A DNA stretch of 57,296 bases from Clostridia bacterium (lineage in GTDB: Bacteria > Bacillota > Clostridia > Oscillospirales > Acutalibacteraceae): positions 1 through 57,296 of the forward strand of contig JAFXBF010000008.1 in the NCBI GenBank assembly GCA_017516745.1, in the 5' to 3' direction. The position numbers and the translations under genes are program-made. Every line of letters starts with the position of its first letter. Position 1 is the first letter of the stretch. A model generated the notes under the pieces. The model had not been told where the DNA came from. It worked only from the letters and a program-made list of their open reading frames with translations, and did not search any database. Positions 39,747-57,296 of this stretch are shown here, piece after piece.

Positions 39747-39823
39747 CCGCCCGTAGCGAAGCTGGATATCGCAGCAGATTCCGATTCTGAAGGCCGGGGG
39801 TTCGAATCCCTTCGGGCGGGCCA
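39747..39823 (+). tRNA. tRNA-Arg (anticodon CCG)
   Basis: The 77-nt cloverleaf can be drawn by hand. The acceptor is CCGCCCG (39747-39753) with CGGGCGG (39813-39819), discriminator G, and encoded CCA (39821-39823). The D stem is GCGA/TCGC. The anticodon loop is TTCCGAT with anticodon CCG, reading CGG arginine. The T arm has loop TTCGAAT. The anticodon stem has one mismatch at its top (G27/A43) and the T stem has two G-T pairs, so folding is good but not ideal. Confidence 0.85.
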
Positions 39824-39864
39824 AATCAGCAGTTCACGCTTCGGCGTGGAGTGCTGATTTTTTT
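39823..39864 (+). terminator. Terminator of tRNA-Arg
   Basis: AAATCAGCA (39823-39831) with TGCTGATTT (39852-39860), an inner CACGC/GCGTG stem closed by TTCG, and a T tail. Confidence 0.85.
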
Positions 39865-39898
39865 CGGTGCGAGGGATTCGAAGTAGGAGCAGTGTAAG

Positions 39899-39922
39899 AA
39901 AAACAGTCCGGTGGACTGTTTT
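39899..39922. repeat. Short hairpin downstream of tRNA-Arg
   Basis: AAAACAGTCC (39899-39908) pairs with GGACTGTTTT (39912-39921). It lies between the tRNA and the repeated tRNA 3' end and may be a second terminator. Confidence 0.6.
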
Positions 39923-39955
39923 TCCCTGCGAATGACCGAGCACCGCAGTGCGAGA

Positions 39956-39977
39956 GTCGAATCCCTTCGGGCGGGCC
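39956..39977 (+). repeat. Repeated tRNA-Arg 3' end (candidate attachment site)
   Basis: A 22-bp perfect copy of the tRNA 3' end (39802-39823, from TCGAATCCC to GGGCCA) lies 154 bp downstream. An inverted 11-bp fragment (AGGGATTCGAA) lies at about 39873-39883. Such copies are usually left by integrative elements that use tRNA genes. Confidence 0.7.
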
Positions 39978-39981
39978 ATTA

Positions 39982-40022
39982 TGAGTGTTAATAACGGATT
40001 CAAGTTATTAACACTCTCTTTT
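39982..40022 (+). terminator. Hairpin with T tail
   Basis: A 13-bp stem (39982-39994 with 40003-40015) and a T-rich tail, just after the repeated tRNA end. Confidence 0.7.
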
Positions 40023-41762: not shown

Positions 41763-42037
41763 TTATCCTCCTCTCCGGCAGTCGAACATACATATTCCGC
41801 TTGTATTGTATTTTTATCTTCGGTGGTTGTCAAATGTGCGAAATCGCTACCGATAAATTCTGATAATTTTTCTTTCATAGTTTTGTGTTCTGTTTTGCTA
41901 AAACGAGATGAAACAATATACCGAACACCGTTGATGACATATTCATTAGCATCATCATCTTTGTTGAGTTTTAATTCAGCACAAGTGTCTCCGATTATCT
42001 CGTGAAATTTTAATTTCAATAGTTTCCAAAATCTCAT
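41744..42037 (-). CDS. Small uncharacterised protein of the recombinase operon
   Basis: This is a 97-residue protein starting MRFWKLLKLKFHEIIGDTCA and containing VINGVRYIVSSRFS, which looks like a two-strand unit. I do not recognise a family. Its start overlaps the ParB-like stop (TAATG) and its end overlaps the recombinase start, so all three are likely translated together. A role in recombination control is only inferred. Confidence 0.65.
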   Translation of the reverse strand: MRFWKLLKLKFHEIIGDTCAELKLNKDDDANEYVINGVRYIVSSRFSKTEHKTMKEKLSEFIGSDFAHLTTTEDKNTIQAEYVCSTAGEEDKCSQTM

Positions 42038-42876
42038 TATCTCGCACCTCGATTTTGTTTTCTCTCCAGATACTTTGCGTAATATTCGCAAGCCTTGATT
42101 ATGAATTCCTGCATTTGTCTTTCATCGGACTTGGGAGAGTATTTCTGCAGTCTTTCCATAGACATTTTAAACATCGGCTTTTGGTTAGCTTTCTCTTCAT
42201 TCATAATTGCTTTTATTGAGCTTTCGGTCAGTTCTACCGATTTGAAAAGTTTCCGCATTCTGTTCGCCTGAGAATATGACGGAGTACATTCCGTTTCTTT
42301 GATTTCGTTAAGCAACATCCGTTGAGTACCTTTATCAAGATACGATAACTCAACCGCAACGGAAAATGCTATTTTGTTTTCATCAACCATAGTAAGCAGT
42401 TCGGGAATAAGCATAGTCAGGCGGATATACCGCTGTACTTGCCTGCCGCTGTCGGTGTCGGAAACATCTTCTCTAGACTTGTGGACAGCTTGTCCACAAG
42501 TTAAATCTGTCCGTTTGCCTTGCGCCTTTAAAGCGTCAAGCTTCAGCTTGTATGCCTTTGCCTTTTCACTCGGTAAAATATGTTCTCTGTGCAGGTTGCT
42601 GTCAACAAGCATAATAGTCGCTTCTTCTTTGCTTACATCACAAACGGTAACGGGTACGGTTTCAAGATTAAGCATACGGGCAGCGTGTAATCTGCGGTGT
42701 CCCGAGATTACTTCATATTTACCTTTCTCTTCCGTCGGTCTGACAACAAGGGGTGAGATTATTCCGTTCTCACTTATGCTATCAAGCAGCGATTCTAATT
42801 CTTCACCCTGACGGATTTCGTACGGATTCTCATTAAACGGAATGAGATTGTTAATATTTACTTTATCAATTTTCAT
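42037..42876 (-). CDS. ParB/RepB-like partition protein
   Basis: This 279-residue DNA-binding protein has the ParB N-terminal domain: NLIPFNENPYEIRQGEELES, GIISPLVVRPTEE, the VISGHRRLHAARML CTP/catalytic-like motif, and SNLHREHILPSEKAKAY. A helix-turn-helix domain and a charged C-terminus follow. There is no ParA nearby. It probably maintains or regulates the mobile module. The start overlaps the preceding gene by 4 nt. Confidence 0.88.
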   Translation of the reverse strand: MKIDKVNINNLIPFNENPYEIRQGEELESLLDSISENGIISPLVVRPTEEKGKYEVISGHRRLHAARMLNLETVPVTVCDVSKEEATIMLVDSNLHREHILPSEKAKAYKLKLDALKAQGKRTDLTCGQAVHKSREDVSDTDSGRQVQRYIRLTMLIPELLTMVDENKIAFSVAVELSYLDKGTQRMLLNEIKETECTPSYSQANRMRKLFKSVELTESSIKAIMNEEKANQKPMFKMSMERLQKYSPKSDERQMQEFIIKACEYYAKYLERKQNRGAR

Positions 42877-43205
42877 AATTTGACTCCCTTCTTTTTCCTA
42901 CGCTTTATGTCGTAAGATACAAAATTTACATTCATTAAAATATACATTGTTTCAATCACAAGTTCAGAAGTTACTTCGGCTTCGGTTCCTCGGAACATCA
43001 AAGCTTTCATATTTGCCGCGAGCTTTCCCAAAGCAGAGAAAAGCTGCATATAATCATCCGAAGGTTTTTCCTGTATTGGATAACCCTCAATGATAAGTCG
43101 AATCAGCTTTTCTTTCGGGAATATGCTTTTGTTTACCAGTTCATTGATACGGTCAAATTCTTTGTTTGTAACTCTGACTGCAATTCTGTTATTTCTGTTT
43201 CTCAT
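42873..43205 (-). CDS. MobC/RHH-like small protein
   Basis: This 110-residue protein begins RIAVRVTNKEFDRINELVNK, a strand followed by helices typical of ribbon-helix-helix relaxosome proteins. The helical second half (LFSALGKLAANMKALMFR) also fits the MobC group. No relaxase gene is found in the window. It overlaps its neighbours on both sides. Confidence 0.65.
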   Translation of the reverse strand: MRNRNNRIAVRVTNKEFDRINELVNKSIFPKEKLIRLIIEGYPIQEKPSDDYMQLFSALGKLAANMKALMFRGTEAEVTSELVIETMYILMNVNFVSYDIKRRKKKGVKL

Positions 43206-43524
43206 GGTTAATCTCCTTTGTTAATTCATCATTGATTTTTATCATAAGTGTTTCGGTATCCCGAATAACTTTTCTGAACATCGGGACATCAAGAACCTTG
43301 CTGTGCCAGGCACGGTCAGCAACAACTCTGAAGCGTTCAATCAGATCGTTTGCTTCGTTGGTTAGCTCAACATAGTTAATATTCACTGTGGGTTTCATAA
43401 CTGTTTCATTGATACATCTGCGAACATACTCCGAACGTGTTGTTCCTGCCAAGTCTGCTGCTTCATCAAGGTCATTGAGTTCTTCATCATTAAGATAGAA
43501 GAATATTGTTTTGGTGTATTTCAT
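43189..43524 (-). CDS. MobC/RHH-like small protein
   Basis: This 111-residue protein has KTIFFYLNDEELNDLDEAAD and TTRSEYVRRCINETV, the strand-helix-helix of a ribbon-helix-helix DNA-binding protein, then a helical C-terminus. The start at 43524 has AGGAGG immediately upstream; longer in-frame starts are unlikely. It is the first gene of the recombinase operon. Confidence 0.7.
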   Translation of the reverse strand: MKYTKTIFFYLNDEELNDLDEAADLAGTTRSEYVRRCINETVMKPTVNINYVELTNEANDLIERFRVVADRAWHSKVLDVPMFRKVIRDTETLMIKINDELTKEINHEKQK

Positions 43525-43760
43525 TCTTACCTCCTTTCTGCGGGTTTTAGGGGTGCGGGTCTCCGGTGGAGACCTTTGAATGCATTTTGCATTCAAAAGC
43601 ACCGACCGAGCCGGCAGGCGAGAAGTCCCTAACAAGTGGGATTTGTATGCACAAATCCATTGCTCGCTAAGACTTATGCCACGAACAAGTTCGTGGTTTT
43701 GTTTTGTCTTTCGGCAGGTACTAAATCATAGACATCAACTCCTTTTTTATGAAGGGCAAA

Positions 43761-44290
43761 ACCCCTTTCACTTATTTGAACAAATACCCCTAAAATGGAC
43801 ACCCCAATTTTGCTGTTTCGGAAAAAGTTTATAAAGAATTTAAAAAAGCCCTTCACTATGTATGAACTGGGAGAGAATTGCAGGGTGTTCTGCAAAAAAA
43901 TTTAAAATATCCTTCACTTATTTGCACTGGGAGAAGCCATTTGCACACCCAAATTCTGAGTTGTTTACAAAGAGTTTAAAAACACCCTTCACTTATTTCC
44001 ACCGAGAGAAGACGTTTGTACGCCCTAATTCCGAAATATTTACAAAGAATTAAAAATTCCTCTCATTATGTTTGCACTGGGGAAGTCGAAATTGGGGTGA
44101 TTTTTTGAAAAGTTTTCAAAAAATTTTTTGTGACGGCAAAAGTGCCGTTATCATTTCGAAATCATTCCGTATTATCTGTGAAGTGACGGCAGAATTGCCG
44201 TCACTTTTTTAACCCCTCCACTTGTTTGGAATTAGAAAGTACTTTTGTACACCTTGCTTCCAAAAATATTTGCAGACAATAAAAAATGCC
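43761..44290 (+). repeat. Degenerate tandem repeat array (about six units)
   Basis: Units begin near 43761, 43849, 43911, 43985, 44057 and 44211, with spacing mostly 62-88 bp. They share CCCTTCACTTATTT, a GGGAGAAG-like stretch, a TTTGTACACCC-like stretch and TTTACAAAGAATTTAAAA. Identity between units is partial. Short reading frames here have no protein features. This is most of the 1-kb gene-free stretch between the mobile module and the TIR operon. Confidence 0.6.
44181..44210 (+). terminator. Hairpin with T tail inside the repeat region
   Basis: AAGTGACGGCA (44181-44191) pairs with TGCCGTCACTT (44196-44206), then Ts. A related smaller hairpin (GACGGC...GCCGTT) lies at about 44132-44149, and another (44288-44310) follows. 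Confidence 0.7.
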
Positions 44291-44375
44291 CTCCCGAAAA
44301 TCGGGAAGGCAAAAAAGTGTTGCTTGATTTAGTGCAATATTTTATTTTTAATCTCTTTTCACAATGCTCTTAAAA

Positions 44376-44407
44376 TGAAAAAAGACGGCAGAAGAAATCT
44401 ACCGTCT
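44376..44407 (-). terminator. Probable terminator of the TIR operon
   Basis: AGACGG/CCGTCT stem (44383-44388 with 44402-44407) with a run of Ts on the minus strand, about 120 bp past the stop codon of the TIR-NACHT-LRR gene. Confidence 0.6.
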
Positions 44408-44524
44408 ATGAGTATATTATTTGATTAGTTGTTCAAATAATTTGCAATAGTAGTTTTTCTCTTGATTAAATTATCGTTTATGAACCATAGAATTTATACT
44501 TGCAAAGCGTGGTATATTATGTAT

Positions 44525-47500
44525 TTAGTCAATAAAGGTTATGATATTGCGGTTAACATCTCCGAAAATACGGCTTATATCATCCTCAAATCTTCGGCTG
44601 ATTTTTATGGAAGTAAGATTGGAACAACCATCGAAAGCGTCATCACCGATAATTCTGACAGAAGACGGAATTGTAATTGAGGCAAGTGATGAACAGCCAT
44701 TAAACGAATCTTCTCTGATTTTAGTAACACTGTCAGGAATGTTGATTGACGTTAATGATGAGCAGTCCGAGAAAGCTGATTTCCTGATTTCGGTTACGCT
44801 GTCAGGAATATTTATTGATGTTAGCGAAGAGCACTCTTTAAATACATCATCTTCAATTTCTGTCACACTGTTAGGAATATTAATTGACCTCAAAGAACGA
44901 CAATATTCAAAAGCTTTTTTTTCGATTTTTGTTACACTATTGGGAATATTAAGTGATATTAGCGAAGAACAACCCGAAAATATACCTTCACAAATTTCTG
45001 TTACGCTGTCAGGAATATTTATTGATGTTAAGTCTAAACATCCTGAAAACGCATGCCTTCCTATTTCTGTTACAGTATCAGGAATATTAATTGACGTCAA
45101 AAACCAACAAGATTTAAATGCATCCGCTCCAATTTTCTTAACACTATTGGGAATGTTAATAGATGTTAATACCGAACAATCCCAAAATGTACCCGAACCG
45201 ATTTCTGACACTCCGGACGGAATGTTAACCGATATTAATTCAGAACAACCCGAAAACGCATACCTTCCTATTTCTGTTACAGTATCAGGAATATTAATTG
45301 ACTTCAATGCAGAACAGTCCCTAAATGCATTAGCTCCAATTTTTGTTACACTGTCAGGAATATCAAGCAATATTAATGATGAACAACCGTCAAATACACC
45401 CTGCTGAATTTCTGTCACTCCAAACGGAATATTAACCGATTTCAAAGAACAACAACCTATAAATGAATTATCTTCGATTTTTGTTACACTGTCGGGAATA
45501 TCAAGCGATGTTAATGATAAACAGCCTTCAAATGCACCCTGCCGAATTTCTGTCACTCCAAACGGAATATTAACCGATTTCAAAGAGCGGCAGCCCTTAA
45601 AAGAACTTTCTCCGATTATTGTTATGCTATCAGGGATATTAATAGATTCAAGTAACCTGCAACCTTCAAATGCATTACCTCCAATTTTTGTTACAGACTC
45701 AGGAATAGAAATTTTTTTTATTTTTTTATTTCTAAACTCTTTGCTTTTTATTTCTGTTGCTCCATAAGGAATCGTTACTTCTTCCGTTATTTCTTCTGGC
45801 GGAGAAGAAAAAGAAATAATATCAGAATTTATATTACGAAACATATATTCGACTTCATTTTCAAATGTTTTGCTCATTTTAACAGAAATCAAACCATCAC
45901 AATCTCCAAAAGCCATATATCCGATTTCTGATACGCTGTCAGGTATGTTGAGTGATATTAGCGAAGAACACCCTGAAAACGCAAACAAATCGATTTTCAC
46001 TACACCATCAGGAATATTAATATATGCTAATGCGGTACATTTCCCAAATGCACCAAAACCAATTTCTGTCACTCCGTCCGGAATGTTAACCGACTTCAAA
46101 GAACAACAACCTACAAATAAATTATCTTCGATTTTTGTCACTCCGTTCGGAATATTAACTGACGTTAATGTAGAGCATCCCCTAAATGCATATGAACCGA
46201 TTCGTGTCACTCCGTCCGGAATGTTAACCGATTTTAAAGAACAACAGCCATCAAATAAATGGTCTTCGATTTTTGTTACACCATCCGGAATATTAACCGA
46301 TATTAATTTAGAACATCCTGAAAACGCATCCGACCCGATTTTCATCACGCTATCAGGAATATTAATTGATGTTAATGCAGAGCATCCCTCAAATGCATAC
46401 AAACCGATTTCTGACACTCCGGACGGAATGTTAATCGATTTTAATGAAGAACATCCTGAAAATGCAAATCCTTCAATTTTTTTGACGGATGACGGTAAAA
46501 CTACACTTTCTAATGTTATTAAATTGCGAAAAGTCCGAACAGATATTTCTGTTATACCATACGGTATTGAAAAATTTAACGAATGGTACAATAATTTATT
46601 CTCTAAAATAACAACGCCCTGAAAAAGAGATATGTTTTTATTCCATGCATCTCCGTAATCTGCTAAACATAATATGTTTTCCGGCAGATACATCACATTG
46701 ATGTGTCTTCTGTTGATTGCAATGTATTCCATTGTTGTGTTTTCGGATGAAGAAAGAATAAGACCCGTTAACTTGCGACAGGATTTTTTTGAAAGTCTGC
46801 TTTCAATTTCATAAATTACATACGGGCAGGACACAATGCCAATAAATTCATCGTTAAGCTCATTATATGCTGTATGCGAAAACAAGCCCAACTCATCGGA
46901 AAACGGAGTTGACATTCTGCCGATAACGCCGCAGCCGTTTTTCATAAAGCTTTTTGCTTCGCTTATATTAAAACAACGCGGATAAACATCTTCGCCGTCG
47001 GAATAATCTGTTTCACCCAGATAAAACAATTCGCAAAGAGCCTTTCTGACACCGCTAAGGTTTTCTTGTGCCGCCGCAAAAAGTTTGGCAGAAGAAACCT
47101 TGTCCGTAAATGATTCAGCAGTATATTTACCGCCCATAATAAAACACACATCGCGGACAAGAGCAAGCATTTTTGCAAAACCAGGCTCTTGCTGTAAACT
47201 TTCCAATGCTATAAGGCATGCCTCATAAAGCCCATATTCCGGTACATACCAGAATAAAGGTCCGTAAGCAGGATAAACCCCTTCTGCGGATTTCTTGATT
47301 ATATCAGAAACAAGAACATTCTGAGCATATTCCTTAAAGCGCAAAAGGTCCCGGCAAGTATCAAAAAGGATGGTATACTCACAAATGCCAAAACAGGTTA
47401 TAAGCTCGTAAAGTGACTTCGTTGTATTTTCATCTATAAGACTGTCCGCCTTGACAAGGAACATTTTTATGACTGCAGACCAATATGGATCGGCATAATG

Positions 47501-49123
47501 AGAAAAAAGTTCCTCAACAGTAGCAACGTCCTCAATTTCGTCGTAATCATCAAAAGCTGACTCATAATATTTTACCGCCGTGAAATACTCAAGAAACATC
47601 TTGTGGTAAAATTCACCGTCAACAAAAATTGCACGGCTTTCCAGATAATTAACCAAAAATTCACTTCGGCTCTGAATATCATCCTCGTATTTTCTCGTTT
47701 TGAGAATACGGCTGAATATCTTCTGAGGTTCAACATTTTTACCCTTTGAAAGAAGAAGATATCTCTCCTTAGAAAAATCTTTCAATATACCCGAAATTTC
47801 TTTGCTGACCATTTCTTTATATTCATCGGGAATAACTATGTCCGTAAAATTATCCAACTTCAGGATAATTTCAGATATTGCATCGTAAATCCCGACAACT
47901 GTTTTCGGTATATCGTTTTTTACATCGTAAATAATCGCAAGCTGTGATAGTAACATCGGGTTTGAGCGAATTTCCTCGTTGAGGTCGCTTACTTTAACAA
48001 AGAAAGTATTAAATTCATTCTCTCGTTCAAAGCAGACAAACAGCTTTTCGGAAAGAGTTCGGATTTCATCTTCATTCAGTTTCTCAAGCAAAAATCGGCG
48101 TACCTTTTTGCCGTCTATGGCAATTAAATCTGCATCGGAAACATTTCTGCCGGTAAATACAAGTATAGTATTTTCCCTGTTTGATTTATAAAACTCTTCT
48201 GCTTTTGAAATGAGCTTTCTTTTGTCTTCGATCGTTGCTATTTCATCTATACCGTCGAAAACAAGCATAATCTTACGGTTGTTAATTAAGCTTACAAAAT
48301 CACTCTCTGTATAAAAATAACGGTTTGAGCAAACACGGCTGAACTCTTTGAATGCCGCTGAAAAAACATCCAACGAAGATATGATTTTTGAGCAAGGAAG
48401 ACTTATGATAATAACATCATCAGGTGCATTTTCTCTTATTTGATTTATATATTGAGATTTACCACAACCAGCAGGGCCATAAATAAATGATATGTCGTTT
48501 GATTCGTATAAAAAGTCTGTTGATTTGTGCGTAGCCTTTTTATCGCCGTTTTCATCTGTTTCGCAAAGTGTACGGTTAATAAAGAGTTTTGAAAAATCAA
48601 AATCATGGTCTTTGTTCTTACTTATTCGACTTAACGATATCAATTTTATATATTCAGATTTTGATGCTTGTTTATACTTGGTATCAAGAAGGTTTATGAT
48701 AAGCGAAACAACTTTATCAAGAGTATCCTTAAGCGCCGTTTCGGTCAATCCGTTTTCATCAAGTATGACCGAGCTGCCGTATTCTTTGATATTCCACGGC
48801 TCTGCACCAAAAACATCCTGGCTTGTCCATACGGGAACAATACGGTTTTCGTATTGCTCAAGCTTTTTATATTCCTCAATTTCAATCGGAACATACTTGC
48901 TCTGAAATGTAGCAGAAGAAACAATCGGCAAAAAAATGTTGCACACTCCAACAGCTTCTCTGCTCCATTGTCTGAAATCTCCGCTGCACTGATGGTCGGA
49001 TTCAAGGCAAGATATATCGTTTTTTCTTAAATAATCAACAACTTGATTCTTAAGTTCACGGTCTGCCCCTGTCCAGCTGATAAAAACATCGTGCTGTTTT
49101 ATGTCGATCCGTTTCATATTCAT
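44525..49123 (-). CDS. TIR-NACHT-LRR protein (NLR-like)
   Basis: This 1532-residue protein has four parts. An N-terminal TIR domain (about 11-145) starts HDVFISWTGADRELKNQVVD. A NACHT-type STAND NTPase follows, with Walker A GPAGCGKS (216-223) and Walker B IMLVFDGIDE (285-294). A helical middle region runs to about 840. The C-terminal array has 27 BspA-type leucine-rich repeats of 23 residues, typified by VTKIGxNAFxGCSSLxSINIPDS. The repeats fall into two blocks (10 and 17), each ending in a similar cap (FENEVEYMFRNINSDIISF and FEDDISRIFGDVNRNIITF). Such proteins are activated by ligand binding to the repeats and oligomerise through the NTPase. The TIR glutamate position appears to be Q52. 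It is the last gene of the operon. Confidence 0.9.
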   Translation of the reverse strand: MNMKRIDIKQHDVFISWTGADRELKNQVVDYLRKNDISCLESDHQCSGDFRQWSREAVGVCNIFLPIVSSATFQSKYVPIEIEEYKKLEQYENRIVPVWTSQDVFGAEPWNIKEYGSSVILDENGLTETALKDTLDKVVSLIINLLDTKYKQASKSEYIKLISLSRISKNKDHDFDFSKLFINRTLCETDENGDKKATHKSTDFLYESNDISFIYGPAGCGKSQYINQIRENAPDDVIIISLPCSKIISSLDVFSAAFKEFSRVCSNRYFYTESDFVSLINNRKIMLVFDGIDEIATIEDKRKLISKAEEFYKSNRENTILVFTGRNVSDADLIAIDGKKVRRFLLEKLNEDEIRTLSEKLFVCFERENEFNTFFVKVSDLNEEIRSNPMLLSQLAIIYDVKNDIPKTVVGIYDAISEIILKLDNFTDIVIPDEYKEMVSKEISGILKDFSKERYLLLSKGKNVEPQKIFSRILKTRKYEDDIQSRSEFLVNYLESRAIFVDGEFYHKMFLEYFTAVKYYESAFDDYDEIEDVATVEELFSHYADPYWSAVIKMFLVKADSLIDENTTKSLYELITCFGICEYTILFDTCRDLLRFKEYAQNVLVSDIIKKSAEGVYPAYGPLFWYVPEYGLYEACLIALESLQQEPGFAKMLALVRDVCFIMGGKYTAESFTDKVSSAKLFAAAQENLSGVRKALCELFYLGETDYSDGEDVYPRCFNISEAKSFMKNGCGVIGRMSTPFSDELGLFSHTAYNELNDEFIGIVSCPYVIYEIESRLSKKSCRKLTGLILSSSENTTMEYIAINRRHINVMYLPENILCLADYGDAWNKNISLFQGVVILENKLLYHSLNFSIPYGITEISVRTFRNLITLESVVLPSSVKKIEGFAFSGCSSLKSINIPSGVSEIGLYAFEGCSALTSINIPDSVMKIGSDAFSGCSKLISVNIPDGVTKIEDHLFDGCCSLKSVNIPDGVTRIGSYAFRGCSTLTSVNIPNGVTKIEDNLFVGCCSLKSVNIPDGVTEIGFGAFGKCTALAYINIPDGVVKIDLFAFSGCSSLISLNIPDSVSEIGYMAFGDCDGLISVKMSKTFENEVEYMFRNINSDIISFSSPPEEITEEVTIPYGATEIKSKEFRNKKIKKISIPESVTKIGGNAFEGCRLLESINIPDSITIIGESSFKGCRSLKSVNIPFGVTEIRQGAFEGCLSLTSLDIPDSVTKIEDNSFIGCCSLKSVNIPFGVTEIQQGVFDGCSSLILLDIPDSVTKIGANAFRDCSALKSINIPDTVTEIGRYAFSGCSELISVNIPSGVSEIGSGTFWDCSVLTSINIPNSVKKIGADAFKSCWFLTSINIPDTVTEIGRHAFSGCLDLTSINIPDSVTEICEGIFSGCSSLISLNIPNSVTKIEKKAFEYCRSLRSINIPNSVTEIEDDVFKECSSLTSINIPDSVTEIRKSAFSDCSSLTSINIPDSVTKIREDSFNGCSSLASITIPSSVRIIGDDAFDGCSNLTSIKISRRFEDDISRIFGDVNRNIITFID

Positions 49124-49374
49124 TTGGCATTATCTCCTTCAGTGAGTTTGGGCTATATGGCTTAATTGCATCTAAATTATAGAGGCACCGCCTATCACAA
49201 CAGAGTATGTGTATCTGTTTATTATCTTTCAACACAATACAGCAATGATATGCCTGTTCATTTCTCTATACTTTGTTGATTGGTCGAAATATTTGTATAA
49301 CTTCTTGATTACTTTTTACCGTTGCTTGATTTTTCAAGGTCATCATATACTTGCGAACTATTATTCTCGCTTGC
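49124..49374 (-). other. 251-bp spacer between the two large TIR-NACHT genes
   Basis: No gene is seen. A TATAAT on the minus strand (complement of 49176-49181) could be the -10 of a separate promoter for the LRR gene, but no convincing -35 lies at the right distance. AAGGAG lies shortly before the LRR gene start. Confidence 0.4.
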
Positions 49375-52300
49375 TTAATCAATTATTGCACCATATTGTT
49401 TAAGTAAAAGCTTTTCTTCATCAGATAAATCGGAAGTAAAGTGTGTTTTGCTAAAATCCACCCCTATCAATTCAAGGCCGGGTTTTATACTTAATTCACC
49501 AATACGGGTAAAGTCCAAACAGCAGTTTTCTTTTTCGCTGTCGCATAATCGATACACTGCCAACTTTGTGCCTTCTTCAAGAACCAGCATCTTTGAATGG
49601 TCGGAGTTTATTTGACATAACTCAAATTGCAGATTAGGACAGTTTGAATTGAAAGAATATATCTCTTCTAACGTGTGTGAACTATAGAGCCATATGGATT
49701 TGTTGAAAGTATTATCGTTTCTTCTTGACAGAATAATGAATTCCGAAGTGCAAAGAAGAATCTCTCCTTCAATTTTTAGTATTGATTCAAACGATTTGGT
49801 TTCTCTTACGACAACCTCTTCATCTTTTTCTTCGAAAAGATACCTGCCATCATCACTGAATTTTAACCATGAGTGAAATTCGCTTTCTGCATCAGAACAG
49901 CCATGGAGGATTTTTGTTAACGAATAATCTTTTGTAGTCCAAATGTATAAATCACCACTTTTTGAGATCGCTGCAACATATTCCTTGCTGACAGACACAG
50001 AAACAAATGGTTCATTATTAATATCAAGTTTTTTAATTATTGTTCCATGTTTTACATCAATTATTGTTATAGACTTATATTCATGTGAATGCAAATCTGC
50101 TTTTTCTGCATCGCTATAAGCGACAACTACGTCACTCGAAATCGAAGAAGCAATCATATTATCAAAAGTACAAACAGGATAAAAATTGTTTGTATCATAA
50201 ATGACACTTCGTTTGACCGTATCATTTTCTCTTAAAATATAACGAGTGCCGTCTTGACTAAACCAACCGGAGCCCGGCAGACAAGTTATAATCTGGAAAT
50301 CCGAAACTCTGATAAAAACAGATTGTCGCCCAAGCGGTCCCAAACAGATCATTTCTCCGTTCGGACTGAACTGCATTTTACTCAAAGGGCTCCACGAAAG
50401 TGATTTTTCATTTAGTAATGTAAGTGTTTTAGAATTCCATAGTCTTAACTTTCTGTCTCTTGAAAAGGTAGCTATATAATTATTATCGGGTGAGAAAGCA
50501 AAAGTTTGTATAGTGGAATATGTTCCGTTTATTTGGGCAACTTGTATAAACCTGTCCATGTCATATACAAACACTTTTCCCTCCAAGGTTCCCAGTGCTA
50601 TCCTTGTGTCCGAGCCGTCAAAACTTACTGTATTAACTCTGTTTATGGAAAAACTGTGTATTAATTCTTTGTTTTTAGTTGTATAAAAATTTACACAATC
50701 ATCAAATACAATCGCAAGCCATGCCCCTGTATTGCTGTATTTTATATGATGTACATTTTTAAAAAAGCGTTCAGTCGAATAGTATACAGATTTGCTTTGA
50801 GATTCCCAGCAAGAAGAGAAGACAAATTCACTTTGCCGTTGCCAGGAAAACGGATCAAAATTTTTTACTGACAGACTGTCGGCACTAACATTTCTCTCAA
50901 AAACACTTATTTCTCCGTTTTTACAGCCGGCTATATGCAAAACATCTTTGAATTTCTTTGCATGTTTTTCTCTGTTGCCATTCAATATATTCCAAATTTC
51001 AATTTTCTCTTCCGTATCTACATTATCAGTATTTTCATTGTGAACAAGTCTCGTTAAAACCGCAACACATGAATTACCACAAATAAAATCAGCTGAAATT
51101 ATATTCTCTTCCTCTTCACAAAAAAGTTCAAGAACAAAGGAATAGTCAATCAACGATAATACCTGTAGTGAATACGAAGTGCTAAGCAATAAATACTGTC
51201 CATCGTTGCTGAACATAACTGAGTTTGCATATGAATCAATTTTTGCTTCTTTCTCTACTGTGTTAGTTTGTGTGTTCCATAAATAAATACTGATCAGCGA
51301 CGGTTCAAATATGTTTTTTTCATCTCTGCAAACAGTCAATACATATTTTGGTTCATTAAAGAAGCAAGCCCCGAGAATCAAACCGTTATGGTAAAAATTC
51401 GAAATAAGACTGCCTGTTTTTATCTTCCAAATCTTTACATAACCGTCATGCCCAGCTGAAAGTACAAATTCACCGTCTTTGCTGAAAGATAAGGTTTCCA
51501 CTGCACTCAAATGACCGGAGTAAAAAATATTTTCTCTTTTCATTGTAGCTGCATTGACATTAGCTGCTAATTCGGGAATGCCCAATCCCGTTGCATTCAG
51601 ATTGCAATCAGATAAATCCAAGCGAGAAAAATCAACTCCTGCAAGTTTCCCTCTGGATTCATAAAATATTTTTACAATCGAATGCAAGGCATACCCGATA
51701 TCTTCATCAAAAGAACCCCTATAAATATCAAGAACTCTTTCCAAAAGATTTCGGTCACACTTTTCTGCAGGAACGCCGTAATTCCATTTTTCGTTTGCAA
51801 AATACGGCTTGTTTCTATGCTCGCCTAAATATTCGCCTATAAACTTGCGAACGGTATAGTTAACCGGTTCGTCTTTGAATGCATTATTCATACATTCAAG
51901 GGCAAGCTCTTTTTCGCCTTCTTCATAAAGATAAACGGAAAGTCTTATTGTGTTAATGTTTTTTACAGCTGCAAAATAATCTCGGATGTGCTGATGAACA
52001 AATCCGTATTTGCCATTGCTCTCCTGCATAATTCCGAGTGCAAAAACACAGCAATTGATAATACTCTCTGTAATTTCCGTTATATCATCACCAAGGCGTT
52101 CGAGTATTTTCTTTGCAATTTTATAAGTATGCATTTTTGCAGATGCGCCGCTTCGATATTTGGTAAATATTTCCCTGCCAAACTCACCGCAAACAGACAT
52201 ATCATCAGTTTCTGTTAATATAGGTTCAATTATCTTTCTTATCTCCCTAACTCGAAGATAGAATTCATTGTTTCGTTCCATATGCCAAGCGATTTCAGGC

Positions 52301-53880
52301 AAAACAAAATCAAGAATAAAATTTTGCATATCACCATCTATTCTTTTTTTCTGCACCGCACTTGCAACATCTGTAACATTCTTTTCAACTTCAGCAAGTC
52401 GTTGTTGCATAGTATATACAGAAATGTTTTTTCTGCGTTCGTTAAAGAATAATTTCAGAATTTCGCCTTGTGTTGATGCTTCATCACATTTTGACAACGA
52501 AGCGTACATCGTTAAGAAAAGAGGAATTTGCAATGCTTCAAACAAACCTTCATCTTCTGATATTTTATCAATAGCTTCCTTTGAAAAATCACAACTTTCC
52601 AGATATCTTTTTATTATTTCTTCTTCTATGCCGGATAAAAACAGTCGTGATAATGAGTCGTTACATATATCAGACTCATTGGAACGGCTTGTTAAGACAA
52701 TTCTTACATTAGGGCATTCAGTCAACAACAAATCTATTTCGCGCATTATCATCTGAACAACACTTAATCTTGTTTCTTCAATTGTTACAGATGAAACCTC
52801 GTTAAGCCCGTCCAGGAGCAGCAAATACTCCGGGGCAGGTGTTGTTTTGGACAATATATCTGTTATCGGCTTAACTGCAACGTCATAAGGTATCGATGCA
52901 AAAACCTCGTCTATATCTCTTACTTCTTTTGCTGTAACTTGCTTAATGGTTCGGTCTGTTCTTATTTGCTTGAAAATTGACCTTCTGATAAAACTTGATT
53001 TGCCGCCCTCATATAATGCACCGTATGTATCGGGAGCAAAAGATAACTCGACAAACAATGGTATCTGAGCATTTTCTGAATACTGCTTGTCTGCATAAGC
53101 GTTATTCATTATGTGCATCAGAGCCGTTGTTTTGCCTATACCGCCTTGCCCGATAAGATAAAAACTGTTTTGTGTTTGGCTGACAGCTTCAAATAACGGA
53201 AGTTTCGTTTCATTTTCATTGTTTTTTTTGTAAACACTAATCGGCATATATTGTTGATCTTTCTTTTGCGAAGAAGCATTGGGTAATATGCTTTCGTTAA
53301 TGTTTAAATTTGCAAAACGTCCGCCGGGTTGCTTGCTGTTTTCCAGCCATCTGTGTGCAGCGAACCACAAGTTCCTTCGGTTTATGTTTGTTACAGATTT
53401 AAAAATTTCATAAAAGATTTCCGAATTATCTGAACCATATTGAAGAAATTTTCGCTGAGCCTTTGTTATGTTTCGTAACTTTTGCGGAAGAGTATTGATT
53501 TCAGGAACAACTGCCCCTGCTGTCTGAACCACTGTTATAGTTCTTTCAAGTTTGTTTTTTTCATATTCGGCAACAGCTAATTCGATTTCATCCTTAACAT
53601 AATCGCGCTCGTCGTTTTCTTCGTCAACATCCCGGTAAATAAAAGCATCAGTAGATCCGATAAGAATATAATGAGGTGCGTTTTTTATTGCATATTCAAT
53701 TGAGTCCCAGAAATAATGTCCATCAGGCATTTCCGCCTTGTCAAAGAATACTCTTAATCCTTTTGCTGTCAGATATGTATATAACGATTCTGCAACCTCT
53801 GAACCACCGCAACCTTCTTCTTGTTTTGTCACATCAGGGTTTGTTCTGCGATATGATATAAAAGCATCGTAAACTTTCAT
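49375..53880 (-). CDS. TIR-NACHT-WD40 protein (NLR-like)
   Basis: This is a 1501-residue protein. The TIR domain (about 3-165) begins VYDAFISYRRTN and contains GLRVFFDKAEMPDGHYFWDS. The NACHT NTPase has Walker A GQGGIGKT (244-251), Walker B LLLLDGLNE (353-361) and sensor-like IVLTSRS (394-400). A helical region runs to ~740; a short pentapeptide-like stretch (GVDFSRLDLSDCNL) precedes WD40 repeats from ~785 to ~1450, for example TLSFSKDGEFVLSAGHDGYV and FAFSPDNNYIATFSRDRKLR. It ends VDFSKTHFTSDLSDEEKLLL. The WD40 propeller(s) are probably the sensor. The acidic residue near the TIR active site is D59 rather than a clear Glu. Confidence 0.92.
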   Translation of the reverse strand: MKVYDAFISYRRTNPDVTKQEEGCGGSEVAESLYTYLTAKGLRVFFDKAEMPDGHYFWDSIEYAIKNAPHYILIGSTDAFIYRDVDEENDERDYVKDEIELAVAEYEKNKLERTITVVQTAGAVVPEINTLPQKLRNITKAQRKFLQYGSDNSEIFYEIFKSVTNINRRNLWFAAHRWLENSKQPGGRFANLNINESILPNASSQKKDQQYMPISVYKKNNENETKLPLFEAVSQTQNSFYLIGQGGIGKTTALMHIMNNAYADKQYSENAQIPLFVELSFAPDTYGALYEGGKSSFIRRSIFKQIRTDRTIKQVTAKEVRDIDEVFASIPYDVAVKPITDILSKTTPAPEYLLLLDGLNEVSSVTIEETRLSVVQMIMREIDLLLTECPNVRIVLTSRSNESDICNDSLSRLFLSGIEEEIIKRYLESCDFSKEAIDKISEDEGLFEALQIPLFLTMYASLSKCDEASTQGEILKLFFNERRKNISVYTMQQRLAEVEKNVTDVASAVQKKRIDGDMQNFILDFVLPEIAWHMERNNEFYLRVREIRKIIEPILTETDDMSVCGEFGREIFTKYRSGASAKMHTYKIAKKILERLGDDITEITESIINCCVFALGIMQESNGKYGFVHQHIRDYFAAVKNINTIRLSVYLYEEGEKELALECMNNAFKDEPVNYTVRKFIGEYLGEHRNKPYFANEKWNYGVPAEKCDRNLLERVLDIYRGSFDEDIGYALHSIVKIFYESRGKLAGVDFSRLDLSDCNLNATGLGIPELAANVNAATMKRENIFYSGHLSAVETLSFSKDGEFVLSAGHDGYVKIWKIKTGSLISNFYHNGLILGACFFNEPKYVLTVCRDEKNIFEPSLISIYLWNTQTNTVEKEAKIDSYANSVMFSNDGQYLLLSTSYSLQVLSLIDYSFVLELFCEEEENIISADFICGNSCVAVLTRLVHNENTDNVDTEEKIEIWNILNGNREKHAKKFKDVLHIAGCKNGEISVFERNVSADSLSVKNFDPFSWQRQSEFVFSSCWESQSKSVYYSTERFFKNVHHIKYSNTGAWLAIVFDDCVNFYTTKNKELIHSFSINRVNTVSFDGSDTRIALGTLEGKVFVYDMDRFIQVAQINGTYSTIQTFAFSPDNNYIATFSRDRKLRLWNSKTLTLLNEKSLSWSPLSKMQFSPNGEMICLGPLGRQSVFIRVSDFQIITCLPGSGWFSQDGTRYILRENDTVKRSVIYDTNNFYPVCTFDNMIASSISSDVVVAYSDAEKADLHSHEYKSITIIDVKHGTIIKKLDINNEPFVSVSVSKEYVAAISKSGDLYIWTTKDYSLTKILHGCSDAESEFHSWLKFSDDGRYLFEEKDEEVVVRETKSFESILKIEGEILLCTSEFIILSRRNDNTFNKSIWLYSSHTLEEIYSFNSNCPNLQFELCQINSDHSKMLVLEEGTKLAVYRLCDSEKENCCLDFTRIGELSIKPGLELIGVDFSKTHFTSDLSDEEKLLLKQYGAIID

Positions 53881-53904
53881 CTTTTCAACATCCTTTGACT
53901 TCGA

Positions 53905-55305
53905 TTATTCTTCTATGTCTAATCCAATTCTGAGAAGAGTTAATTTTAATACAGCCAATGCAGTATCCCAAAGACCAACGCGTTTAAATTCTTTAAGTTT
54001 TTGTTTGATTGTTTCTTTTTCTAATGGAACAAATATAAGTTGATTTTTTTCATAAGTATCTTTTCTTAACGGATGTTCTTGGGTTAGTTGTTCTCTTGTT
54101 CTGTCCGTGAAAATTGTTCCAACAATATTCCATTGACCGTATTGCTTGTCTAAAATAATTCCGTTCAGCTTTATATCTATGTTTGAATCATTATATGAGA
54201 CCTCTTCTTTATAGGCCCTACGGCATTCATTAATAACATAGTTGTCGTCAGATATATCATATTCAAAACCAGGTGATTCGGAAACTTCGATTTTTAAACC
54301 CTCAACAATGGAGCAGTCAAATTCTCCTGTTCGGATTCTGCGCTGTGTGCTTCTTCTGGAAAACACTAAATAATTATCAGCAGTAATAACCATCAAAGCC
54401 AAACCCATAGCATTTGGAATACAAAAGACATCTTCCTCACTGTCATAATTATAAATTTTTTCGTTTATTTTCAGTCTTTCGTTATTCCATAGCTGAATAC
54501 ATTTATTGAACAATTTGTATTCAATTGTCCTGAAAAGTATTTCAATATCCAAATTATCTGTATTGCTTTCTCTGGCAGACATGCATCTGACAACAGAAAT
54601 CATATCATCGTTCTGCTTTGGTTCAAATACGTTACTGCTGATACGTTCTATCTTTTTGTAAAAATCTATTTCGTCTGAATATTCCAGAAATTTAATTGAA
54701 ATCGGCTTTTGTAAATCCTGCAAAATTATATCTACTGTTGTTTGGCTTTTACAAAACTCAAAATTGCCTACGAGTTTATCGCCGAAAAATTCAGAAGATA
54801 ATATTGAATTATATAAATTTTCAAACAAATCCTCTTCATCATCTTTTCGGGTGTTAAACTTTACGACATTGCTTTGAGCAAAATGGTTTACACTATCAGA
54901 CGTTAAAATATCTGCTTCACTAAAAAGTTGCCTTAATATGATTTGTTCATTAATTGTAATTGCGTCCCTGTCAAGAAAAACAGTTACCAGTTTAAAACTT
55001 TTGTCATTTTGGATTTTTCGTTCAATTTCAACGATTTCCAATGATGTAATGCATTCTATCCTAACAGCATCATTGCTTTTACTCGTTTTGTTGTCTGAAA
55101 CAAAATTTTCAAAGAAATCGTTCGTTATAAACAGAACCGCACATTTTGCATAAGAAATCAAATCCGGTATATCGCTTTTGTAATTTCCGTAAGCTTCATC
55201 ATCTGAATACCAAACACCATCATATTTTCTGCTTGTCATATATTTTTTAAACAGTTTTGCAGTTTGAGCGCCGCTACTTCTGTAACATAAAAAAATATCA
55301 CTCAT
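53905..55305 (-). CDS. TIR protein with degenerate Nudix-like C-terminal domain
   Basis: This 466-residue protein has a TIR domain at 1-~165 (SDIFLCYRSSGAQTAKLFKK, SYAKCAVLFITNDFF). A middle part (~170-290) is not recognised. Residues ~298-440 look Nudix-like: MGLALMVITADNYLVFSRRS, then FDCSIVEGLKI, and a Nudix-box remnant R363-A-Y-K-E-E-V-S370 where REUXEEXG is expected, so the two late glutamates stay and the first is lost. The TIR site aligned with the catalytic Glu appears to be S44. It starts after GAGGTG, 17 bp behind the PP2C gene. The Nudix-like part may bind or cleave a nucleotide such as an ADP-ribose product; this is inference. Confidence 0.7.
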   Translation of the reverse strand: MSDIFLCYRSSGAQTAKLFKKYMTSRKYDGVWYSDDEAYGNYKSDIPDLISYAKCAVLFITNDFFENFVSDNKTSKSNDAVRIECITSLEIVEIERKIQNDKSFKLVTVFLDRDAITINEQIILRQLFSEADILTSDSVNHFAQSNVVKFNTRKDDEEDLFENLYNSILSSEFFGDKLVGNFEFCKSQTTVDIILQDLQKPISIKFLEYSDEIDFYKKIERISSNVFEPKQNDDMISVVRCMSARESNTDNLDIEILFRTIEYKLFNKCIQLWNNERLKINEKIYNYDSEEDVFCIPNAMGLALMVITADNYLVFSRRSTQRRIRTGEFDCSIVEGLKIEVSESPGFEYDISDDNYVINECRRAYKEEVSYNDSNIDIKLNGIILDKQYGQWNIVGTIFTDRTREQLTQEHPLRKDTYEKNQLIFVPLEKETIKQKLKEFKRVGLWDTALAVLKLTLLRIGLDIEE

Positions 55306-55321
55306 AAAAAACACCTCAAAA

Positions 55322-56137
55322 TCAGTTTACAACAAATTTAATATAGGTTCTATCATCATAGCTGTTAAGATTGTTATAAAATCCTTTAACAGTTCTGTTT
55401 GATTCAATTAACAAAGGATCTTTTTCCAATACTTCGCCCAAAATGTTTTCACTTTCTTCCAAAGAAGAACGCAATTGTGGATAACCGTCTGTAGCTAAAA
55501 TAATTATATCGTTACTTTTTACATCAATACTTGTGAAAAAATCTCCATTTAACTCGAAACCATCCAGTATTGGATATCCAAATTCATTGTTTTGGTTTGC
55601 AAATAAAGGCTGGTAATTTAATAACTTATATATATATATTGCACCTGCATCAGAATCCAGTAATTCTTCTTTTGATTTTCCCAATCTCATTTCTGCTTGA
55701 TTAACAAAACTTCTGACCTGAGCATTTAGTTCGTCAATTTTTTTGTTGAATTGATACTCGTTTTTATTTATCATCCATTTACAATCGCCGTATGACCAAA
55801 TTTGTTTGTCTTTTATGCTGTATATGAGAATTGACGCCATCAATCTTTTAGCTGGATTATTTTTAGCTTCAGGGTAATCCTTTTGCGCCTGATTCAACAG
55901 CGCATTGAGCGATTTTATAGCCTCAAAGCCAGACACTGTATTTTTCAAGTTTAATATACCGTTAACAAGTATATCCTTTGCGAGCAGTCCACCTGGCAAT
56001 CCTTTAAAATCAGTAGCATTGGAAGCTCCGTCTATCACCGCTATATAATCATCTGTTATTATAAGTCCATCTTCATTAAGCTCTTGATCCTTTCTTTTCC
56101 CCAATATAAAGCTTTCAAGTATTGTAACATCATTCAT
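55322..56137 (-). CDS. PP2C-family protein phosphatase
   Basis: This 271-residue protein has the ordered PP2C motifs: NEDGLIITDDYIAVIDGASN (metal-binding ED and DG), RLMASILIYSI, IWSYGDCKWMIN (GDS variant GDC), DIIILATDGYPQL (TDG), and the terminal DDRTYIKF (DD). All metal ligands are present, so it is likely active. There is no kinase gene in the window. It is the first gene of the TIR operon and could dephosphorylate one of the sensors, but no partner is shown. Confidence 0.82.
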   Translation of the reverse strand: MNDVTILESFILGKRKDQELNEDGLIITDDYIAVIDGASNATDFKGLPGGLLAKDILVNGILNLKNTVSGFEAIKSLNALLNQAQKDYPEAKNNPAKRLMASILIYSIKDKQIWSYGDCKWMINKNEYQFNKKIDELNAQVRSFVNQAEMRLGKSKEELLDSDAGAIYIYKLLNYQPLFANQNNEFGYPILDGFELNGDFFTSIDVKSNDIIILATDGYPQLRSSLEESENILGEVLEKDPLLIESNRTVKGFYNNLNSYDDRTYIKFVVN

Positions 56138-56171
56138 AAATAATACCTACCTTAACTAAGACTATGATTTA

Positions 56172-56200
56172 ATATTATCATATCTTAAATCTAAATTCAA
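56172..56200 (-). promoter_or_regulatory. Promoter of the PP2C-TIR operon
   Basis: On the minus strand, TTGAAT (complement of 56195-56200), a 17-bp spacer, and TAATAT (complement of 56172-56177) with TG at the extended -10 position. Confidence 0.65.
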
Positions 56201-56356
56201 TTATTTGATTGTCAGTTTAGAAGAAAACAACAACCGAATCGTGTCACTAAAAATATGATGAACTTAATTATAAAAACAAATTAATTGACTATATGTTTTA
56301 GTGAAAAAGCTTTGATGTGAATTACCGTTGATAAAAGATTCTTCTTTCTTGATATA

Positions 56357-56385
56357 TTGATTTTTAAGCTGAAACTTTCTATAAT
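56357..56385 (+). promoter_or_regulatory. Promoter of the zinc-ribbon/TIR gene
   Basis: TTGATT (56357-56362), a 17-bp spacer, TATAAT (56380-56385), then AAAGGAGG before the ATG at 56413. The divergent PP2C promoter lies about 160 bp away. Confidence 0.8.
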
Positions 56386-56412
56386 AAAATTTATATAAAG
56401 GAGGTTTTTGCT

Positions 56413-56613
56413 ATGATATGTCCTTTTTGCGCATCTGAAAACATCTTTTACAGTAAAAAAAGAACAATGTATTTCTGTGAAGATTGCGATGCAAGTTTTG
56501 AAACACCAGCTTTCAATAAAGGAATGCGCATTTTTATCAGTTATGGTCATGATAAAAATGCTTCTGTTGTCTCTTCAGCAAAGACAAAACCCCCGGTTCT
56601 ACCGGGGGAATAA
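56413..56613 (+). pseudogene. Zinc-ribbon/TIR gene cut off by an IS200-type insertion
   Basis: The 66-residue product starts with a zinc ribbon (CPFC at 3-6 and CEDC at 22-25) and then MRIFISYGHDKNASVV, the first strand of a TIR domain. Only about 15 TIR residues remain. The rest (SSAKTKPPVLPGE) is read from the IS left end. With its own promoter and ribosome-binding site, the gene was once complete. The missing 3' part may lie beyond the IS, outside the window. Confidence 0.7.
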
Positions 56614-57296
56614 AAAAGCTTTAGTAAAAATAAACAGTGGCGAGCAAGGGCAAGCCACAAAAACGTAGAGAAAAGAATTAACCTCCGAGTATAATAGAAG
56701 TGGTTTGGCAGCCGCATTACTAAAATACAGGAGGTTAAAAACATGATAAAAAAAGACGGAAACAACGAAATAAAAACATTATCACACTCAACGTACAGAT
56801 GTCAGTACCATATAGTATTTGCACCGAAATACAGAAGAAAAGAAATATATGGAAAACTGAAAAAAGATATAGGCGAGATAATAAGGAAATTGTGCGAACA
56901 AAAAGGAGTAGAAATCATAGAGGCAGAAGCCTGTAAAGACCTTTAGTATCAATACCACCGTACTTAAGTGTAGCACAATTTATGGGATATCTCAAGTGTA
57001 AAAGTACGTTGATGATATTTGACCGACATGCAAATTTGAAATACAAGTATGGGAATCGACATTTTTGGTGTAGAGGGTACTATGTAGATACAGTCGGTCG
57101 AAACAAGAAAGTGATAGAAAAGTACATTAAAAATCAATTAGAAGAAGATTTTGCAAATGACCAGATATCACTCAAAGAGTACATCGACCCGTTCACGGGT
57201 GACAAGAATAACTAAGCAAAAATAAACAGCCGCACGAGAGCGGCTGCTTGAGATAGTAATGCGGTGTCAAACTTCAGTGCCGACTTTTAGTCGGCA
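56580..57296 (+). mobile_element. IS200/IS605-family element (start approximate; runs to or past the window end)
   Basis: The element has no inverted repeats, subterminal hairpins at both ends and a Y1-type transposase relic. The left hairpin is CCCCCGG-TTCTA-CCGGGGG (56590-56608). The right hairpin TGCCGAC-TTTTA-GTCGGCA (57278-57296) ends at the last base of the window. A further stem (57227-57246) follows the transposase gene. The exact left boundary cannot be fixed without an uninterrupted copy of the target gene. Confidence 0.8.
56743..57215 (+). pseudogene. tnpA: TnpA (IS200-type Y1 transposase), frameshifted, HUH motif deleted
   Basis: The first part (56743-56946) encodes STYRCQYHIVFAPKYRRKEI and GVEIIEAEAC; the second part, in another frame (56982-57215), encodes LMIFDRHANLKYKYGNRHFW and later the DTVGRNKKVIEKYIKNQ region around the catalytic Tyr. 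Between them, after the GAC codon near 56938, the codons expected for His-x-His-Met are missing. The frame change of +2 fits a 10-bp deletion. Without the HUH motif the enzyme cannot cut DNA, so this copy is inactive. Confidence 0.88.

Follow-up and report, generated by a model that had tools for sequence, protein, structure and literature searches.

Do four adjacent genes rich in TIR domains make up one immune machine, or are they neighbours that share a mobile element? The question is raised by contig JAFXBF010000008.1 of a 2.89-Mb Clostridia bacterium genome (GCA_017516745.1, labelled G000), which at its full 57,296 bases is the window analysed here. Its minus strand carries P1 (TIR, STAND-like P-loop nucleoside triphosphatase (NTPase) and BspA-type leucine-rich repeats (LRR); 44525–49123, 1532 residues), P2 (TIR-NACHT-WD40; 49375–53880, 1501 residues), P3 (a predicted TIR-Nudix fusion; 53905–55314, 469 residues) and P4 (PP2C-like; 55322–56137, 271 residues). 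A first-pass annotation had taken these genes for a single immune system in which two sensors work in parallel and a phosphatase acts as a switch. The four open reading frames all lie where it placed them; the single system is not borne out, in that no pair of the four was met together elsewhere, 251 base pairs (bp) separate P2 from P1 and the G+C content (GC) differs along the array. The reading that we favour, with a confidence only a little past even, is mobile defence cargo in which two independent TIR sensors of the nucleotide-binding leucine-rich repeat (NLR) type, a separate TIR-Nudix enzyme that would consume nicotinamide adenine dinucleotide (NAD+) and a probable PP2C phosphatase are neighbours rather than a four-part machine. 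Most of the cluster belongs to a type of bacterial immunity that is already known, and the TIR-Nudix fusion is its unusual part.

Read in the direction of transcription, P4, P3, P2 and P1 form an operon-like array with gaps of 7 bp (P4–P3), 24 bp (P3–P2) and 251 bp (P2–P1). The likelier start of P3 is an ATG at 55305 that by eye stands behind GAGGTG. GC and GC at third codon positions (GC3) are 0.326 and 0.276 in P4 and 0.318 and 0.27 in P3, while P1 and P2, both at a GC of 0.36, differ from P4 and P3 (0.33 and 0.32). Two terminator-like hairpins occur 3′ of P1 on the same strand (44311–44287 and 44407–44383, within 44287–44407), from a scan that as a whole gave 9 sites against 7.7 in shuffles and so did not exceed the shuffled sequences.

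P1 and P2 share the plan of bacterial NLR proteins

Both large proteins combine an N-terminal effector with a C-terminal repeat sensor, each over its Pfam cut-off. P1 matches TIR_2 at 36.2 bits (cut-off 28) and LRR_5 at 663.5 bits, and a simple motif counts 23 LRR units spaced at 23 residues save for one break. Between effector and sensor, a Walker A motif (GPAGCGKS, from residue 216) and an FDGIDE box (285–294) mark the NTPase, for which the NACHT (PF05729; 16.3 bits against a cut-off of 26.7) and ATPase_2 (26.3 against 33.2) matches are both below threshold. P2 matches TIR_2 (35.8 bits), NACHT (PF05729; 35.3 bits, cut-off 26.7) and WD40 (63.5 bits, cut-off 27) among the 25 families listed, of up to 54, for each WD40 protein, and has the nucleotide-binding boxes GQGGIGKT and LDGLNE. 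The tripartite plan is also that of the bNACHT25 paper, in passages of which NACHT proteins with LRRs count as bona fide bacterial NLRs (PMC12169576), and part of a review lists NACHT proteins with TIR effector regions (PMC10952713). That P1 and P2 belong with the NLR-like TIR proteins known from antiphage defence, as the first-pass annotation had proposed, is supported by the Pfam matches and the tripartite plan.

When the TIR domains of the three TIR proteins are aligned with ten further ones, including two from relatives of P3, one glutamate is invariant in all 13 sequences (E81 in P1, E98 in P2 and E93 in P3). We take this column to be the catalytic residue of TIR NADases; NADase activity is a prediction for each of the three proteins. 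Residues 518–790 of P1, just before the LRRs, are 49% identical to part of a TIR-LRR protein encoded on contig C9 of the same genome, which has no NACHT match and a Sel1 match below cut-off; because this stretch recurs there, sensor modules appear to have been exchanged between TIR proteins.

P3 as a predicted fusion of TIR and an altered Nudix domain

The assignment of P3 depends on its relatives. Its TIR_2 match (19.3 bits) is under the Pfam cut-off, and none of Pfam, PADLOC and NCBIfam gives a direct Nudix match for its C-terminus. Searched alone against genome contigs, P3 returned no relative, and a two-row alignment returned two, one of them the gene in G046. The full-length relatives come from a goat-rumen Clostridia assembly (G046, locus L014; 37–40% identity) and a buffalo-rumen Lachnospiraceae assembly (L013; 39%). 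A profile of P3 and these two sequences detected, in four of the 397 other genomes searched from the phylum, relatives of the C-terminal part only (E 5e-5 to 1e-3), and this stand-alone family aligns with P3, profile against profile, over 249 columns (94% probability, E 1e-7). One of its four members exceeds the Pfam NUDIX cut-off (L047, 23.3 bits against 21.1), one is just below it and two have no match; the family's nearest solved relative is NUDT22, at a weak E of about 0.03. Because the stand-alone relatives align and one of them passes the NUDIX cut-off, the P3 C-terminus is assigned to the Nudix superfamily, homology being established through that family.

The Nudix helix of P3 is altered. 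The consensus of the Nudix box is REUXEE; R-x-x-x-E-E is kept, and the first glutamate is replaced in all six aligned proteins, such that P3 lacks the complete box of an active Nudix hydrolase. On these alignments P3 is predicted to join a TIR to a domain of the Nudix superfamily whose box is altered. No match to P3 was found among plasmid and phage records or among solved structures. Two further candidate relatives, L011 and L012 (E 3e-4 and 6e-4), were set aside, their frames reading by eye as permease-, response-regulator- and aminotransferase-like. The TIR-Nudix combination was not found in a literature search covering mainly open-access papers, and the terms 'TIR-Nudix' and 'Nudix-TIR' have no occurrence in a review of NAD and ADP-ribose (PMC9503650); the fusion looks new. 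The stand-alone Nudix relatives (L046–L049) adjoin genes that by eye resemble sugar or glycosyl transferases, neighbours that hint at a nucleotide-sugar substrate.

P4 is a likely PP2C phosphatase

P4 has no direct PP2C match in Pfam, PADLOC or NCBIfam, and its identity is read from motifs and sub-threshold matches. The five aligned members of its family share the motifs ED, DG, GDC, A(S/T)DGYP and DDR, of which ED, DG and DDR are invariant and the fourth is ASDGYP in four members and ATDGYP in P4. These acidic motifs we take to be the metal-binding motifs of PP2C enzymes. The relative L052 matches PP2C_2 below threshold (E 0.015, 15.3 bits against a cut-off of 24). A first alignment gave only chance-like matches to solved structures, and the top two hits of the P4 profile are 1txo (E 0.09) and 2cm1 (the PstP phosphatase, E 0.11), both PP2C structures. 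In a comparison with a protein of this genome that is clearly a PP2C, the C-terminal motifs of P4 fall into register, at a non-significant 1% probability. The motifs suggest that P4 is likely, if not proven, to be a PP2C phosphatase.

Set against the first-pass annotation, the domain labels hold over Pfam cut-offs for TIR in P1 and P2, for NACHT in P2, and for WD40 and LRR, and fall below them for NACHT in P1 and TIR in P3. 'Nudix' and 'PP2C' had no direct match; the former gained standing through relatives, and the latter depends on motifs and sub-threshold matches. Four TIR-bearing genes had been counted in 12 kb, of which three stand and the fourth is a cut fragment only.

Relatives of the four genes occur apart from one another

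The first-pass annotation had proposed looking for the same gene order in other genomes and named a lack of co-occurrence there as grounds to refute a single system. P3 was sought in samples of 97, 394 and 398 genomes that overlap, and full-length matches were confined to its own genome and G046. P4 has two strong relatives and one partial relative (G183, E 3e-4) in 245 genomes and none besides itself in 299; it also matches three plasmid records and, in part, two short contigs of a phage collection. Among 197 genomes, P2 has one strong relative (G174, 38%), which aligns from residue 196 and so without the TIR domain, a weaker one (G144) and four that are TIR-only or marginal. In the same number, the search with P1 gave G074 as the single strong relative (43%) and G122 as a match to the TIR alone, besides a paralogous region within the window's genome; the weak matches of P1 in four plasmid records are confined to NACHT/NB-ARC regions. 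The control for the searches that came back empty consists only in the recovery of the window's own genes by the same profiles.

The relatives whose neighbourhoods were followed (one strong relative of P1, one of P2, two of P3 and five of P4) each stand without the other genes nearby. Compared with P1–P4, and with P1 matches starting beyond residue 800 (LRR-only) left aside, no locus among the 13 fetched has relatives of two of the four, save the island L033 of the window's own genome, which encodes two TIR proteins, both P2-like. Nor was P4 found in any of the five genomes carrying relatives of P1, P2 or P3, or P3 in any of the five carrying relatives of P1, P2 or P4. In what was searched, co-occurrence was never met, the very outcome by which the first-pass annotation would have its single system refuted. 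A joint function of the four genes here may still exist, relatives being few.

Tandem sensors do occur elsewhere. On a plasmid of Haliscomenobacter hydrossis (L053:7287–16055), two NACHT-WD40 genes lie in tandem, 33 bp apart, and adjoin a caspase-family gene that itself has WD40 repeats; the first gene of the tandem is the match of P2. At locus L039, no TIR is among the 25 Pfam families listed.

These distributions bear on two readings that bind the genes more closely. The better of them, which we consider unlikely, joins P4 and P3 alone as a two-gene unit of phosphatase and TIR-Nudix enzyme beside two unrelated TIR-NLRs, as the 7-bp gap and the near-equal GC and GC3 of the pair would suggest; however, both other carriers of P3 lack P4 nearby and genome-wide, and the five relatives of P4 have no P3 nearby, two of them lying in searched genomes that have no P3 at all. 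Somewhat less probable still is one integrated system, in which P1 and P2 would be alternative sensors, P3 the effector or the amplifier that they share, and P4 a phosphatase keeping P3 in check or resetting it. The common strand, the gaps of 7 and 24 bp among P4, P3 and P2, the lowest GC values in P3 and P4 (0.32–0.33), which were perhaps acquired together, and the existence of tandem NACHT genes elsewhere all accord with it, but it has to contend with the 251 bp between P2 and P1, with the lack of any pair of the four in other places, and with the fact that P1 and P2 need no shared effector, each TIR protein having its own glutamate. A more specific form of this idea, that P3 is an immune enzyme of a new kind whose TIR domain makes and whose Nudix domain senses or destroys an ADP-ribose-type signal, so serving as an amplifier for both TIR-NLRs with P4 as its reset switch, strikes us as improbable.

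The cluster is low-GC cargo of a tRNA-targeting element

The reading as mobile cargo that we prefer draws on the sequence next to the cluster. A tRNA-Arg gene (ccg; 39747–39823, plus strand; ARAGORN, Rfam tRNA 56.8 bits) is the integration target, and its last 22 bases (39802–39823) recur exactly at 39957–39978 as the left end of the element, two exact matches in the window where none is expected. The second copy lies 104 bp from the gene of a large serine recombinase (40083–41762, minus strand; Resolvase, Recombinase, Zn_ribbon_recom and DUF4368 over cut-offs), and between them is an inverted repeat (39983–40016) that by eye resembles those beside the tRNA genes of four sister loci. In these four loci, two in the same genome (C11 and C22) and two in relatives (G006 and G101), a tRNA gene (Ser, Pro, Tyr or Gln) has its 3′ end 106–111 bp from the recombinase, and a similar inverted repeat occupies part of the interval; in a fifth (G052, L077), no tRNA was seen. 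Some DNA match to the element's backbone occurs in 36 of 80 genomes, and the comparison of sister loci covers these five. Beyond the recombinase, on the minus strand, follow genes for a ParB-like protein (42037–42876; TIGR00180 86.3 bits, cut-off 58.45), a possible mobilization protein (42873–43205; MbpA E 0.035, below cut-off) and a small protein labelled by eye as ribbon-helix-helix-like, its start uncertain (43189–43635; VapB-type antitoxin 24.7 bits, below the cut-off of 60).

GC falls along the way from host to cargo. It is 0.47 in window positions 1–39700, against 0.36 for the element, and 0.50–0.53 in seven of eight measured host genes (0.44 in the eighth); the recombinase and ParB genes have 0.41, the two small genes 0.36–0.38, P1 and P2 0.36, and P3 and P4 0.32–0.33. 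The recombinase, ParB, the 22-bp tRNA repeat, the matching spacing in the sister loci and this drop in GC together place the cluster on a mobile element, as low-GC cargo of a tRNA-targeting integrative element. At the junction the tRNA 3′ end is present twice, with the recombinase beside it; the contig does not reach the element's far end. The 133 bp between the tRNA end and the second copy of the repeat (39824–39956) are perhaps the trace of an earlier integration at the same tRNA. For transfer genes of its own, the element has only the sub-threshold MbpA match, and a gene that by eye is relaxase-like occurs in the C11 sister. Beyond that gene (L074:3753–12492), the C11 sister encodes proteins of 898 and 1396 residues without a Pfam match, then a DUF2971 gene; its large genes are possibly further defence cargo. 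Between the mobilization-type genes and P1, the window has a non-coding stretch (43640–44500) that contains repeats of 75 bp and an inverted repeat of 19 bp; it has no Rfam match and could be a transfer origin or a regulator.

Upstream of P4, on the plus strand, is the start of a gene labelled by eye as zinc-ribbon/TIR-like (56413–56580, 56 residues), which is interrupted by an IS200-type element (56581–57296, plus strand; also labelled by eye, its start approximate and its transposase frame broken), within which the contig ends. About 15 of the 56 residues are TIR-like, and three of the 79 further genomes searched from the family have weak relatives (E 0.004–0.006). Truncated by the insertion, the fragment was discounted as a fourth TIR gene.

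TIR genes elsewhere in the host genome

The genome contains 14 TIR_2 matches, two of them in the window (P3 being outside this count) and seven within 13.7 kb on contig C26, a denser cluster than that of the window. With 14 genes placed at random, 55% of trials had a 12.1-kb stretch containing at least two of them, and 1.7% had one containing at least three. With 14 matches in all and seven in a single 13.7-kb island, a cluster of TIR genes is ordinary for this genome. On one strand of the C26 island (L033, G000:C26:230001–249999; L034), a TIR-LRR-CutA1 frame is accompanied by a TIR protein whose NACHT and beta-propeller matches are below threshold; just upstream lies the gene for a protein of 993 residues that has a Card1-like nuclease domain. 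Contig C11 encodes a TIR-Sel1 protein. On contig C23 (L036:5604–9182), TIR, an Mrr-type nuclease and NACHT are joined in one protein, all over cut-off, possibly an NLR-like core with two effectors. A region of C9 (L035:10357–19998) combines a clear PP2C_2 phosphatase with two TIR frames, a partial kinase and a gene that by eye is kinase-like. In the genome with the P1 relative, a 1737-residue protein (L042:5115–10328, G074:C2) has the unusual combination of an N-terminal TIR domain with SecA-like DEAD and P-loop domains.

Discussion

If P1–P4 are defence cargo of separate function, their action can be sketched as follows. The C-terminal part of P1 (LRR) or P2 (WD40) would recognise an invader or a sign of damage, upon which the central NTPase would oligomerise and cluster the TIR domains. 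The clustered domains would then degrade NAD+, and the infected cell would stop, as in abortive infection. Separately, the TIR domain of P3 would split NAD+, giving ADP-ribose or a cyclic product, which the Nudix domain would bind or hydrolyse, so that the loss of NAD+ becomes irreversible or the signal is limited. P4 might tune P3 or another partner, a guess and the weakest step of the scheme.

Several observations weigh against this reading. Pattern scans of viral contigs returned no relative of P1, P2, P3 or P4, and P3 had no match in phage or plasmid records, so that the cluster has no direct link to phage; NADase and defence activity alike are predictions from sequence. P1 and P3 have below-cut-off matches where a NACHT and a TIR domain, respectively, are proposed. 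As few relatives were found, the absence of co-occurrence is weak evidence, and the tight spacing of P4, P3 and P2 on one strand would also fit a functional unit. The pairing of two sensors may exceed accident, given the NACHT-WD40 tandem of Haliscomenobacter; TIR-LRR and TIR/beta-propeller proteins likewise share one island in this genome. That the genes serve something other than phage defence, as signalling or stress proteins by which the element fends off other elements or sees to its own transfer and upkeep, the TIR domains being NAD+ switches, would suit their place on an element, the missing phage link and the housekeeping-type genes around relatives of P3 and P4, but seems improbable in that TIR-NACHT proteins with sensors are described as an established antiphage kind (PMC12169576, PMC10952713).

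Of the described systems, bNACHT and TIR-NLR proteins come nearest to P1 and P2, which have their N-terminal effector, central NACHT/STAND module and C-terminal sensor. They differ in that the P1 NTPase is under the NACHT cut-off, that two such genes share an element with TIR-Nudix and PP2C-like genes, and that they are known here from sequence. Thoeris resembles the cluster in its TIR enzymes and their predicted NAD+ chemistry, but no SIR2-SLOG or macro-domain reader was seen among the four genes (in the Pfam matches listed, PADLOC and NCBIfam), and P2 matches ThcB4 at 14 bits against 220, far below cut-off; membership in Thoeris was rejected for want of a ThsA-type reader among the four genes. 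Passages of Kaur et al. (2020) on STAND-centred conflict systems describe a similar mix of TIR, STAND and repeat sensors and name PP2C and Nudix as accessory domains (PMC7159879). Unlike those systems, the four genes include no MoxR, vWA or GTPase component among the Pfam matches listed, and the protein kinase to which those passages link PP2C was not found among them either. SpbK-type defence is described as a single TIR protein acting as an NADase (PMC12847820); P3 differs by adding a Nudix domain, and the likeness is one of description, without a sequence comparison. With NUDT22 and the Nudix superfamily, P3 shares a homologous domain in which R-x-x-x-E-E is kept, whereas its domain sits behind a TIR, has the first glutamate of REUXEE replaced and gives no direct Pfam match. 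This gene set was not announced in the titles and abstract beginnings covered by the literature search.

Of greater importance would be a four-gene system that is both new and conserved, which the evidence does not favour. Were the amplifier reading of P3 true, the locus would be a bacterial counterpart of sensor-plus-helper NLR networks, on one mobile element; paired sensors may be a recurring theme. As it stands, TIR-NLR receptors, in plan close to the immune receptors of plants and animals, ride a tRNA-targeting element in a clostridial genome, and if P3 works as proposed, one immune protein would couple the production of a signal to its removal.

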